Source of the DNA: Tetradesmus obliquus
Lineage: Eukaryota; Chlorophyta; Chlorophyceae; Sphaeropleales; Scenedesmaceae
Assembly (NCBI GenBank): GCA_030272155.1
Contig: CP126193.1
Span: forward strand, 7,130,001 to 7,194,000
Length of the DNA: 64,000 nucleotides
Reading direction: 5' to 3'
Shown: positions 26,924 through 31,947 of the stretch, piece after piece
Layout of the letters: each line of letters opens with the position of its first letter
Position numbering within the stretch: position 1 is the first letter of the stretch
Made by a program: the position numbers and the translations under genes
The notes under the pieces: model-generated
Seen by the model: the letters and a program-made list of their open reading frames with translations, nothing else
Told to the model about the DNA's origin: nothing
Database searches by the model: none

Positions 26924-26943
26924 GTGGGTTGGACATCTGCATT

Positions 26944-27666
26944 CAGCTGGGCATGGTACAAACGTAGCATCTGCATTTTGCAACAAATCAACACAGCTTG
27001 CAAGCAGACAGCCATGCTGGCATAGCAACCTGCTGTATGTGGCAGGCACAGTAAGGCACAGCTGCCAGTGCTGCTGCTTTGGTTTGCTTGCATCCCAACT
27101 GCACAGCAGGGCCCCAACCTGCCAGCAGCAGCAGCTTCAAACTGCTAGTAATTTTGAGCTCCAGAATTCGCCTTGATCACACAAGAAGGATGTTTGCAGG
27201 AAACTGTGTAGAATACTAGTCCTCAACAAAGTCTGTGCAGCCACACTAGCTGCACGCGCGCAGCAGCTGCCGGTGGGCCTGAAGCGGTGTTGCGCACTAT
27301 GTAACAGATATGACAGTTGAAACTGTATGTGCAGCGCACAGCGCCAAGCAGCAGAGCGCAACAGCAGCGGCAGGGCACTTGGCACACCAGAACTGCAGTG
27401 CCTGATCAGCCAGCAAGGGAAGCCCAGAAGTGTTACACTACACATCAAAACATGTTGCAGGCAGCAGCACCCACAGCAACACTCTACAGCGCAAGTTAAC
27501 ATATGTAACAGCCGAGTCGGGGCACTTCAGGGCAACGTGTTTTTAGCACTTTTCTTGCAGCACACTGTGCCACTGCTAACAGCTCAAATTGATTTAGATT
27601 CGTCGTTGAAAGCTTGACATTTATATGTAGGCCACTTGTTCGCTACGTTTGTACCATGCCCAGCTG
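26944..27666 (-). mobile_element. X block 1 (reverse): 723-bp non-autonomous TIR element
   Basis: Both ends carry a perfect 25-bp inverted repeat beginning CAGCTGGGCATGGTACAAAC. The interior holds no convincing gene; the 121-codon frame it contains is Cys/Leu-rich and domainless. This is the outermost copy, sitting in intron 1 of the second Stig1-like gene with ATT to its left. It may be a MITE-like passenger; I cannot tell which transposase would move it, since its ends differ from those of T. Confidence 0.75.
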
Positions 27667-27774
27667 AGACCGGTCAAACTCCACGATGCCGCAGGCTGTT
27701 GTTTGACCTGACCAGTTACTTCTGTTCACACTGCTGCTAGAAGCACAGCTAACATATCCATATGTTTTGGATTC

Positions 27775-29977
27775 ATGCCTGCAGGGGGGCTGTCCATGGT
27801 GCGCAAGCACCCTTCAGGATGGAAGAGCAACCGCAGCACCACGGCCATGAGGGTGGCGGCGGTGGTGTGTGTGATAATGGCTTTGACCACAGCTGACGAA
27901 AAGTTTACGCCCGCATATTATTACAGAGAGCAGTACCCTGACTACGCCAAGGAGGTACACGGGGACCTGAACCGGTTCTGCAAACTCATCACAAGAACTT
28001 CACAGCAAACGGCACAGTGGCTACACCCAAGCATGGCGGCAGGCCCTCAAATGTCCCACATGCTGTCGCCTTCCATGCCAGCACAATATTCAAGGCTGGC
28101 AAGGTGGTAAAGGCCTACCCATCTGCAGATTCAAAGAGACAGGTTGATGTGCACGTGTGGTGGACTTCAATCGAAGTCGCATGTCAGGAAAATGACACAC
28201 TGCGCCAGCTGTGCACTGACTACAACATCACACCCAAGAGACTGCTGAAGTACATGAAATGGGCTGACCCCGACCTGGTGCGCAGGAGAATAGATGTGAA
28301 GCTGGACTTGACAAAGATACAGAAACAAAGGCGAAAAGCAGCAGCTGCGGCGCTGTGGCAGAAGTACCAAAGTGACCCCGACATGCTGCAGCGCATATAA
28401 TTCATTGATGAGTGCAAATTCTGGATGTCAGACCTGGCAGGCGGCTCCGTCAAGGTCTATTGTGATGCACACGATGAAAACGTGCATGCTGTGCTGCCAT
28501 GCAAATGGATGCGCAAGGGCAAGGACGCAGAGCCGGTCAAGTTGCACTTTGTCTGCGCCGTCAACGCTGTGCACGGGCCCGTCTACTGCAAGTTTGTCAC
28601 CGGCACAACAGACAACAAGGACCATGCTGGCAACCTCAATGTACCGTACATGGTGAGTGTGCGCTGCTACTGCGCAGGCGCCTGCCATCGAAAGACATGC
28701 CAGCCCTGCTGTACTGTGTAGTAACAGTCCCGCAGTGCTTTTTTTAATGCTGTAGTGAAGCTGCAGCGCTGCCCGTCCTCTGCTGTGAACATAACAGCAG
28801 AGTAACTTGGTGACAGTACAATGACACTACCTGCAGCAGCAAGCTGGAAACCAATGTGCAAGGATTGGTGCATGTCAAATCCGCGCGTGCTCACGCGCAG
28901 CACAGTGCCCCCTGGCTGCAGCCAGTTGTCATATGCTGCAGCGCAGAACTCAAAGTCGCGCTCCAGCACCTGCTGCCTGCTGCTGCTGTAATAACCCTTG
29001 TCATGACATGAGCCATCAGCTTGAATCAGCATGTTGTGCTGTGCATGGAGGAAATCAATCCGCCCATCCCACCAGTCCACTGCTACCTGAGCACACATAC
29101 TGCTGCTGATGCCTAACCAGTACAGCATGCACACCAGCTGCTCCTCGCTTGTGTGCATGTAGCCCATGCATGTGCCAACCATATCAGCCAGCACACACGC
29201 ACACATCTTGCATTGAAGCGCTGCTGCTGTGGCGACTGCACGCGGCGCGCAGAACTTGAAGTGCTGCACACCTGGCAAGCAGCCAGTCAAGCCCCAGAAC
29301 AATCTCTGCCCCCTCATAGACTTGGTGATGTATCTGACCTTGTCTGCACTGAGCCTGATGTAGAAGCGTCCCATCGCATCCATCCACACCGCTGCGTTGC
29401 GCTCCTGCGCTGCTAACAAGGCTGCGCGCTGCCAATCCGGCAATTCTTGCACCTGCAGTTGAAGGACAAACCAACCCAGCAGGCCAAGAGCATGACTCAG
29501 CTGGAGTTTGTTCACTGCATGATGGAGATCAAAGACATAGCCAACCAACAGCAGGCGCAGCGCGGCACTACGCCGCTGTACATCTTTGACAACCCAAGTG
29601 TTCACCTGGGGAAGGATGGCCTACAGATGTTGGTTGCAGGTGGCATCAATGAAGATCAACTGCTGCACATTGCACCCTACTCCCCAGATTTCAACAAGCC
29701 CATTGAACATGCATTTGGCAGCCTCAAAGCAGCCTTCCGCAACTACTTGTATAACAGCTGCCAGCTGGGTGGTGCTGATGTGAAGCCGCGAGACCTGCAG
29801 CACGGCCTGTACAACACCTTCATGAAGATCACAGCTGCATCTGTCATGGCTGATGTATTGAAGCTGCCAGATTTATGGAACATGGTGCGCAGCCGCAAGA
29901 GGAGTCTTTGTGTGTGCCGAGACGGGAAGCAGCGCCGCGGCACTGCTGGCGACTACCCCAGGAAAGACCAGCGCTGA
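27775..29977 (+). pseudogene. Tc1/mariner-like DDE transposase, frameshifted and with an internal TAA (T block 1)
   Basis: Exon 1 runs from about 27775 to 28652 and exon 2 is 29459-29977, with a phase-0 intron ATG|GTGAGT ... CTGCAG|TTG of 806 bp. The N-terminal part (KHGGRPSNVPHA region, basic) looks like a DNA-binding segment. The catalytic residues are the Asp in FIDECKFWMSD, the Asp in YIFDNPSVHLG and the Glu in PYSPDFNKPIEHAFG; 38 residues separate the second Asp and the Glu (DD38E). Two defects are visible: the register changes between about 27960 and 27995, and TAA at 28398-28400 stands directly before FIDE. A 41-bp intron could formally repair the first, but is improbably short. The same defects occur in every other T copy, so none here can make a full transposase. 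The 5' start is uncertain. Confidence 0.8.
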
Positions 29978-30161
29978 GTCTGCTGTAGTGCTGCTGCAGG
30001 GCATGTAGGGATTGTGGCTGTCAGCTGCATGCAAGATGGCTGGCCAGCAGTGCACAGGGTGTCACTCAGAGAGCCCTTGAGCTCACCTGTTTGAGGGCAC
30101 CTGCGCTTGTCGCCGTCCTGCATGTTCGCACCGCCCGGGGCTTGGGAGGTGCTGGCACCAT
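28667..30161 (-). CDS. Putative DUF559/Vsr-like PD-(D/E)XK nuclease, antisense and interleaved with the transposase (T block 1)
   Basis: Exon 1 is 30161-30087 (25 codons, MVPAPPKPRAV...), donor CAAACAG|GTGAGC; exon 2 is 29452-28667 (CTGCAG|GTGCAAGAA ... TAG), phase 0, total 286 residues. An in-frame TAA precedes the ATG, although a CTACAG acceptor there leaves room for more exons. The C-terminal half has RIDF at about residue 156, IQADGSCH at about 168-175, an ERDFEFC helix and GTVLRV, in the order and spacing of DUF559/very-short-patch-repair-type endonucleases (D ... ExDG..H ... G..VLR). Gln replaces the usual Glu in ExDG, which could weaken metal binding. The remaining N-terminal ~150 residues, with several Cys, are unrecognised. 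Unlike the transposase it is open in every copy. It may be a homing-type nuclease or repair helper of the element; activity is unproven. Confidence 0.6.
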
Positions 30162-30410
30162 GCTGCTGTAGGGTGGTTACTTCCTGGTGTTCACCTGAGA
30201 GCGAGTGTGGGAACAAAATGGCATGTTCAGAGGCTTATTGTATGAGTAAACTACATGTGGATGTTGTGCTTTGGTGCTCAGACTTGTCAGGAGTGGTTCC
30301 TGCTTCAAACGACTGCTGCAAGGCAGCAAGGCACTTGGTGGCCATTTCACATACAGGCATTTGCAGTCATGCTGAATTGCCGAATGTAATGGTAAAATTC
30401 CTGGCATAAT

Positions 30411-30808
30411 TCAACTACGCTCGTAGCTCTTGAACATGGCTCCTGCTGCTGTCACTCGCGTTAGTTGTGACGACTGTTGGCCTGCCAAGCGATATGCACG
30501 GAGCCTGCAAGAAACCTCGCGGTAAATTAACTTTTATATTTGATGATTGATTTAAGCATGGCTTGAGCCGAAATAAACTGCGGTATGGTGAAGAACTTCA
30601 AGACGGAAAGGTGCCCTGAAACAAGCCTGCTCCGAGCCACACAGCTGCCACGCTCCCAACTTTTCATCGTCGACACATTATGCAACGTACCTTTGGTTGA
30701 AGCACAAAACCAATCCTGAAGGGCCCTCGCAAGCCCACGTTGCAGGTGAGCCTGACGGGTCAACACGGATGTCCAGAGCACTGCAGCTCGATCGCGTTGC
30801 TGCAGCAC
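30411..30808 (-). pseudogene. Captured Stig1-like exons inside T (block 1 copy)
   Basis: Exon-like segment 30808-30691 has TTTGCAG| and AAAG|GTACGT borders with phase 1 in and phase 2 out, exactly as exon 2 of the intact Stig1-like gene (118 against 121 bp). It reads VDPSGSPATWACEGPSGLVLCF, faintly like LDPGCSPTEPNNCGTPSAPIC of that gene. A second segment 30504-30411 (CTTGCAG|G ... TGA) would close a short protein of about 90 residues if joined to the 26863 exon. Another frame of 30808-30691 gives an amphipathic Arg/Leu-rich helix instead, so the reading is tentative. The same segments lie at equal offsets in every T copy. Confidence 0.35.
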
Positions 30809-31224
30809 CTGCAAACAATTTGTAATGAACATTAAACGGCGTTAAACACAGCGCTGTACTGAAAGCCTTCGCAAAAAAATTAGGTAGCAGCAGTGAGGCA
30901 CCTGCTGGCACATGCTGCTGCTGTCACGCCCACCAACAACTGCTGTTGAAAAACACATGCCACCGTGATTCAAAGCACACATAGCTGTAACGTTTCCTGT
31001 TGTCTGCTGCTGCTGCTGCTCCTGCCCAGGCAGATATCATATATTGCAAACAGTGCTACTGCCGCAGTAAAATCAGCTGCATACCCAGCAGCAGCAGGAG
31101 CACATCAGCCATAGCATGAAAAGGTAGGTGTGCACTTCAGGCACCAAGTCCAGGAACAGCAACAGAAGGGATGCAGTGCAGGCTAAGAACTGCTGCAGCA
31201 AAGGCTGGCATGCAATTACAGTCT

Positions 31225-31947
31225 CAGCTGGGCATGGTACAAACGTAGCGAACAAGTGGCCTACATATAAATGTCAAGCTTTCAACGACGAATCTAAATC
31301 AATTTGAGCTGTTAGCAGTGGCACAGTGTGCTGCAAGAAAAGTGCTAAAAACACGTTGCCCTGAAGTGCCCCGACTCGGCTGTTACATATGTTAACTTGC
31401 GCTGTAGAGTGTTGCTGTGGGTGCTGCTGCCTGCAACATGTTTTGATGTGTAGTGTAACACTTCTGGGCTTCCCTTGCTGGCTGATCAGGCACTGCAGTT
31501 CTGGTGTGCCAAGTGCCCTGCCGCTGCTGTTGCGCTCTGCTGCTTGGCGCTGTGCGCTGCACATACAGTTTCAACTGTCATATCTGTTACATAGTGCGCA
31601 ACACCGCTTCAGGCCCACCGGCAGCTGCTGCGCGCGTGCAGCTAGTGTGGCTGCACAGACTTTGTTGAGGACTAGTATTCTACACAGTTTCCTGCAAACA
31701 TCCTTCTTGTGTGATCAAGGCGAATTCTGGAGCTCAAAATTACTAGCAGTTTGAAGCTGCTGCTGCTGGCAGGTTGGGGCCCTGCTGTGCAGTTGGGATG
31801 CAAGCAAACCAAAGCAGCAGCACTGGCAGCTGTGCCTTACTGTGCCTGCCACATACAGCAGGTTGCTATGCCAGCATGGCTGTCTGCTTGCAAGCTGTGT
31901 TGATTTGTTGCAAAATGCAGATGCTACGTTTGTACCATGCCCAGCTG
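31225..31947 (+). mobile_element. X block 2 (forward)
   Basis: Same 723-bp sequence as the block at 26944 but inverted. It separates a forward T from a reverse T, so it forms the loop of a large inverted repeat with 3558-bp arms. Confidence 0.75.

Follow-up and report, generated by a model that had tools for sequence, protein, structure and literature searches.

The window analyzed here is the whole of a 64,000-nucleotide stretch of the Tetradesmus obliquus genome (CP126193.1, our contig C3, positions 7130001-7194000; the genome comprises 104.66 Mb in 17 contigs). It carries copies of a repeated unit, T, which is very probably a DNA transposon of the cut-and-paste kind, akin to the IS630/Tc1/mariner (ITm) group and bearing two genes that converge and are nested reciprocally: a transposase on the plus strand and a second, putative nuclease gene on the minus strand. 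The anatomy of T, its conservation, selection on the reading frames, target duplications, and footprint-like junctions carry this reading. Both the reciprocal nesting and a splice acceptor common to the two genes are kept between the subfamily found in the window (T1) and a diverged one (T2), over 59-68% protein identity. That diverged relatives keep the layout suggests, as far as sequences can tell, that a small element can truly accommodate two proteins in this way.

Two interlocked genes with a predicted shared splice acceptor

The predicted features of the first T unit are as follows.

27775..28652, plus strand: transposase exon 1 (ATG at 27775; homologues P0030-P0038)
28653..29458, plus strand: transposase intron (806 bp, GTGAGT...CTGCAG), containing the nuclease main exon
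29459..29977, plus strand: transposase exon 2, stop codon included
30087..30161, minus strand: nuclease exon 1 (ATG at 30161, 25 codons, phase 0, basic peptide MVPAPPKPRAVRTCRTATSAGALKQ)
29453..30086, minus strand: nuclease intron (634 bp, GTGAGC...CTGCAG), containing the entire transposase exon 2
28667..29452, minus strand: nuclease main exon (261 codons and a stop; C-terminal half weakly Vsr/DUF559-like)
29453..29458, both strands: shared palindromic 3' splice site CTGCAG, the sole overlap of the two introns

The nuclease main exon fits inside the transposase intron with margins of 14 bp (28653-28666) and 6 bp (29453-29458). It is in exactly these latter 6 bp that the introns overlap, and because CTGCAG is a palindrome, it presents an AG acceptor on each strand, in the contexts CTGCAG|TTGAAG (plus) and CTGCAG|GTGCAA (minus). 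A sequence-only reading of this DNA had proposed the coordinates of these introns and exons, including the spare 14 and 6 bp, and rechecking on the sequence showed them to be correct. Its central claim, mutual exon-in-intron nesting on two strands, is borne out by the sequence and by diverged relatives: an exon of each gene lies wholly within an intron of the other in the window and in the alignment of T1 with T2, with splicing predicted. Its view that the two products come from separate transcripts is likewise supported, again with splicing predicted. To the layout originally noted, we add the first exon of the nuclease gene (30161 down to 30087).

Conservation of the layout and selection on both genes

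The T2 subfamily, found with homologue P0010, forms arrays on contigs C4, C10, C13, and C14 and has two single copies on C6. We aligned T1 with loci L069 (C13) and L070 (C4) and with L071 (C6), a relic. All four sequences retain the two donors and the shared acceptor, and T1, L069, and L070 also retain both start codons and both frames; an absence of the minus-strand frame from relatives, which the earlier reading had named as evidence against itself, was looked for, and the frame proved to be kept. The predicted spliced T2 products have 468 (transposase) and 286-288 (nuclease) residues, and identity between T1 and T2 is 68% for the transposase and 59% for the nuclease main exon.

Between L023 (T1) and L069 (T2), the ratio of nonsynonymous to synonymous differences (pN/pS) in the right frames is 0.455 for transposase exon 1, 0.48 for transposase exon 2, and 0.58 (bootstrap 0.46-0.75) for the nuclease main exon, with no stops in any of them. 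The other five frames of each exon contain 1 to 13 stops and have ratios of 0.57 to 1.44, the lowest of which (0.57, 0.66, and 0.70) belong to the opposite-strand frame with coinciding third positions. Since the nuclease exon is intronic for the transposase, overlapping coding does not account for its conservation. Genomic copies tell the same for stops: of 146 scored copies of the nuclease main exon (from 282 candidates), 132 are free of internal stops and 14 have a single one, and all 150 scored copies of transposase exon 2 are free of stops. Long chance frames do occur on both strands of the window, and one could suppose that the antisense frame is another of these and no gene at all. We give this practically no credence, because the frame has 16 homologues down to 55% identity with invariant residues, combines its ratio with freedom from stops in the nuclease frame alone, remains open in most scored copies, and lies in a stretch that is intronic on the plus strand, where coding on that strand cannot be the cause of the conservation.

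Searches of the genome with P0005, P0034, and P0027 (146 of 281, 125 of 478, and 150 of 394 candidates scored, respectively) found loci of the T1 and T2 types only among the scored candidates; further subfamilies are possible.

The transposase and the second protein

Exon 1 of the transposase encodes a GRP motif and the first catalytic D (within ...FIDECK), and exon 2 encodes the second D (in FDNPSVH) and the E (in PIEHAF), with 38 residues between them. The D-D-E triad (D212, D337/340, E376/379; D-D-38-E) is present by sequence, and catalysis is predicted. The spliced T2 transposase scores 28.9 bits with the Pfam family DDE_3, above the cut-off of 28.6, and DDE_3 is the sole Pfam family that it matches at E <= 1; exon 2 of the window alone scores 23.9 bits, below the cut-off. 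Placed by domain, triad, and target duplications, the element is related to IS630/Tc1/mariner but is not a standard Tc1/mariner element. A sequence search of solved structures gave no match at E <= 1 for the profile of either protein.

The nuclease label of the second protein is weak (DUF559/Vsr-like). Its likeness to Vsr/DUF559 endonucleases consists of weak DUF559 matches (E <= 1 in 11 of 16 scanned members, the window protein and 15 homologues; best 0.0018), of the top fold in a second-look comparison of weak structure models (1vsr), and of the name "very-short-patch-repair endonuclease" that the source gives to 5 of the 16 homologues. It differs from them in that the window protein, like the L070 protein (11.9 bits) and P0005 (12.8 bits), falls below the DUF559 cut-off, and in the residue two before the DG..H motif, which is usually acidic in Vsr/DUF559 and is Gln in all 17 aligned nuclease sequences. 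D133 of the main exon is invariant in the same 17. The DUF559 model had no matches in the T. obliquus genome (6 candidates scored), so this profile is blind to the nuclease family here, and a scan of NCBIfam returned one irrelevant family, in 1 of 16 members. Most likely, the second protein is an endonuclease of the Vsr/restriction type and would assist transposition or repair.

Homologues in the protein database

The 16 nuclease homologues are 55-94% identical to the window protein. In six of them (P0006 and P0008-P0012), the first residue corresponds exactly to the first main-exon codon, P0005 and P0007 start within one residue of it, and six others start later; P0001 (94%) has an upstream extension like that of the window frame, and P0015 opens with nuclease exon 1. 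Such starts are the choice of a gene caller and have little weight alone. In P0015, from a rearranged third lineage, the 25-residue exon 1 is followed by VS. It is identical to the T1 exon at 10 of 25 positions and to the T2 exon at 12 of 25 (T1 vs T2, 13 of 25), identities that shuffled sequences reach in at most 1.5 in 100,000 cases.

The profile of the spliced transposase matched nine proteins, all of them exon-1 products, which run to ...PY[M/Y/H], continue with Val-Ser, and terminate within 26 residues thereafter. P0030 is T1-like and P0031 is T2-like; the remaining seven represent other lineages. Transposase exon 2 has 13 homologues, which start within the exon or, in P0017, four codons earlier. 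A nuclease homologue (P0003) and an exon-2 homologue (P0018) are each listed with a longest contig of 2947 bases, from one and the same source. Gene finders would split such elements into separate partial open reading frames, as in the protein database searched. Scans of viral contigs with the nuclease alignment (14 pattern stretches), the exon-2 alignment (47), and P0032 (4) yielded no confirmed relative.

Intact and broken copies

All nine copies in the window have a transposase frame broken by a one-base disruption near 27985 and by an in-frame TAA at 28398-28400. The TAA is found at this position in all C3 loci fetched, where the antisense gene is intact. The search with transposase exon 1 (P0034) gave 125 scored matches, all without a stop and none on C3. 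We translated ten T1 loci outside C3 (L023, L024, L025, L027, L028, L030, L031, L032, L033, and L034): a 465-residue transposase is open in nine of them, the exception being L031, and the second protein of 286 residues is present in seven, the three loci on C17 (L032-L034) stopping seven residues early. Both genes are open in L023. The lesions are split between copies: those on C3 combine a broken transposase with an intact second gene, and five on C7, C8, and C16 combine an open transposase with a D133N replacement in the second protein.

The broken transposases of the window, together with the lack of a spliced transposase product among the database matches, would fit a different history, in which the transposase has no intron but was inactivated by insertion of the antisense gene, and the copies are relics. 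However, copies on other chromosomes and T2 have both halves of the transposase open, in phase, and constrained, and all nine exon-1 relatives end alike at the donor; we therefore hold this history to be very improbable.

Points against reciprocal nesting and a nuclease

Several results weigh against the reading of T as two reciprocally nested genes, one of which encodes a nuclease. The comparison at the DNA level covers one genome, with further lineages entering at the protein level only. None of the nine transposase matches spans the splice junction, though the 465-residue product is within the length limits, so the database offers no evidence for splicing of the kind that complementary DNA would give; the Val-Ser read-through in nine of nine relatives is consistent with the same donor and goes no further than that. 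The window protein scores 14.2 bits with the DUF559 profile, below the cut-off of 20.6; the structure models are weak, with a predicted local distance difference test (pLDDT) score of 57; and Foldseek with the first model against PDB gave no matches at E <= 0.001 (417 at E <= 10). D133 is replaced by N in 5 of the 10 translated T1 loci (L024, L025, L027, L028, and L030). Nuclease exon 1 has a pN/pS of about 0.7 with an interval of 0.34-1.50, being too short for a firm rate test. Finally, an in-frame ATG lies upstream of the acceptor in T2 (L069 and L070), where a nuclease start without splicing is possible, which counts against a strict need for exon 1.

On the one hand, the upstream ATG of T2, the wide rate interval of the short exon 1, and a Met at about the main-exon start in P0007 would suit a one-way nesting, that is, an antisense intronic gene that starts in its main exon or is read from unspliced RNA, with the second intron unused. 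On the other hand, in T1 no ATG precedes the acceptor in the unspliced nuclease frame, whose first Met is residue 24 of the main exon; T1 and T2 both retain the 25-codon exon 1 with its ATG and an in-phase donor, as does P0015 at the protein level; and the acceptor of the nuclease intron is kept as well. One-way nesting thus appears improbable, if less so than the relic history above, and we prefer reciprocal nesting.

Target duplications and footprint-like junctions

T is flanked by two copies of a long inverted repeat, M.

26944..31947, plus strand: first complete element, M'-T-M (5004 bp; ends CAGCTGGG...CCCAGCTG)
26944..27666, minus strand: left long inverted repeat M' (723 bp), with the 25-bp terminal repeat CAGCTGGGCATGGTACAAACGTAGC on each side
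27667-31224: unit T (3558 bp)
31225..31947, plus strand: right long inverted repeat M (723 bp)

The 25-bp terminal repeat forms the outer ends of M'-T-M (26944-31947). Perfect 3-bp target duplications are present at all 11 insertion sites for which both ends were fetched (from the C3 array, L072-L074, and L075-L092), and none is TA: ATT flanks the C3 array (window 26941-26943 on the left), AAT flanks the insertion at C7:338k, and the nine others are GGC, ATC, GCA, TCT, TCA, TAC, GGT, TTG, and AAC. The TA target-site duplication of Tc1/mariner proper is not what these sites have. Duplications of 3 bp without TA preference are unusual for a transposase of the IS630/Tc1/mariner type.

Where two T units abut, exactly CAG or CTG replaces the 723-bp M. 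Two of the eight T-T junctions in the window lack M (52613 and 60455), one with CAG and the other with CTG; across nine fetched loci with such junctions (L006, L007, L008, L019, and L021 on C3, in the window; L030, L048, L049, and L050 on C16), there are five CAG and four CTG. These trinucleotides are what excision of M with a 3-nucleotide stagger would leave, and 3-nucleotide junctions of this kind resemble the footprints of Tc1-type elements such as Sleeping Beauty.

Proposed expression and mechanism

We infer the expression and movement of T as follows. A plus-strand promoter at the left would drive the transposase, and removal of 28653-29458 would unite the first catalytic D with the D and E of exon 2 while discarding the nuclease exon on the other strand. 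The second gene would have a minus-strand promoter near 30200, and removal of 30086-29453 would supply the nuclease with its start codon and basic N-terminus and discard transposase exon 2. CTGCAG would act as the acceptor in both directions, so that almost no base is wasted and the main exons never code on both strands; as the strands differ, the shared acceptor would never be contested on one RNA. Upstream of the acceptor, each gene runs through coding sequence of the other. The transposase would act at the 25-bp ends, cutting with a 3-nucleotide stagger.

The convergent transcription units would share about 1.3 kb, each pre-mRNA holding the main exon of the other gene in antisense orientation and losing it as intron. 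The predicted coding sequences of the mature mRNAs do not overlap, whereas their untranslated regions probably overlap: only 14 bp separate the nuclease stop from transposase exon 1, and an ordinary nuclease 3' untranslated region would therefore be antisense to that exon. The earlier statement that each mRNA discards the other gene thus holds for the coding sequence alone. TGTAA is the green-algal poly(A) signal. Its first downstream occurrences are at 27921 (minus strand, present in T2 too) and 30385 (plus strand), a few being expected by chance; transcripts ending there would make the mature mRNAs complementary, and regulation through double-stranded RNA is possible on this arrangement of sequences.

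A more speculative proposal, which we put forward as a doubtful one, is that the two reciprocal introns house a two-subunit machine. A Vsr-like nuclease would cut the other strand for the DDE transposase, by analogy with TnsA for TnsB, and sense/antisense transcription of the 1.3 kb would set the subunit ratio and limit copy number via double-stranded RNA or transcriptional collision. A TnsA entry is absent among the 50 VIA-align matches listed, which excludes nothing.

If the splicing is as predicted, a small eukaryotic transposon carries two full-size genes in about 2.4 kb with main frames that do not overlap, and giving each gene's intron to the other gene is a means of packing. The layout also makes testable the self-regulation of a transposon through convergent transcription and a shared splice site, as well as the use of an accessory Vsr-like nuclease in Tc1/mariner-like transposition with 3-bp duplications.

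Relation to known elements and gene arrangements

The ITm group is known already, as are nested genes and Mariner elements that carry additional nucleases. Eukaryotic nested or interleaved gene pairs have a gene within an intron of another gene, on the opposite strand. The arrangement in T differs in that the nesting is reciprocal, uses one shared acceptor of 6 bp, lies in a mobile element, and is kept between subfamilies. A transposon combining reciprocal nesting with a shared palindromic acceptor was not found among the titles and abstract openings listed in searches of the open-licence literature, which is not proof of absence.

The element is like members of the ITm group (Tc1/mariner, pogo, Gambol, Zator, and Sailor) in its DDE_3 domain, D-D-38-E triad, GRP motif, and terminal inverted repeats. 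It differs from them in its varied 3-bp duplications, in its second, reciprocally nested gene, and in that its 723-bp inverted repeats themselves bear the terminal repeat on both sides. Zator is characterized by a 3-bp target duplication and a Zator-type transposase; in the present element, the duplications are 3 bp long, and DDE_3 is the sole Pfam family at E <= 1. The duplication types named for the ITm group in the relevant parts of two papers are TA, TAA, TAAA, and TATA (PMC7386202, PMC8533490). Mariner elements with a separate endonuclease (GIY-YIG or EcoRII-C) and TA duplications are described in another (PMC3627910), and they are like T in combining a mariner-type transposase with a separate endonuclease in one element. 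The passages on them describe no interleaving or shared splice site, and the word "intron" is absent from the main text. The second protein of T is probably an accessory endonuclease.

The tandem array and the right-hand part of T

A tandem array of the element fills the window from 26944 to 64000 and spans C3:7156944-7216161; M stands between most T copies in it, and comparable arrays are present on several further contigs. Of the nine nuclease exons in the window, five share one orientation and four have the opposite one, and the segment 28400-30200 has 14 identical copies within the C3 array. The C3 copies are identical to each other, and the remaining T1 copies are 97-99% identical to them. 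M, a long inverted repeat, is itself bounded by the 25-bp terminal repeat on either side and could therefore move alone in the manner of a miniature inverted-repeat transposable element.

In 30162-31224, the roughly 1 kb that separates the nuclease start from M, no gene was identified. Beyond 30160, identity between T1 and T2 is 38-72% per 60-column window and below 65% in 13 of 18 windows; it amounts to 38-48% in 30160-30330 and to 57-72% between about 30800 and 31217.
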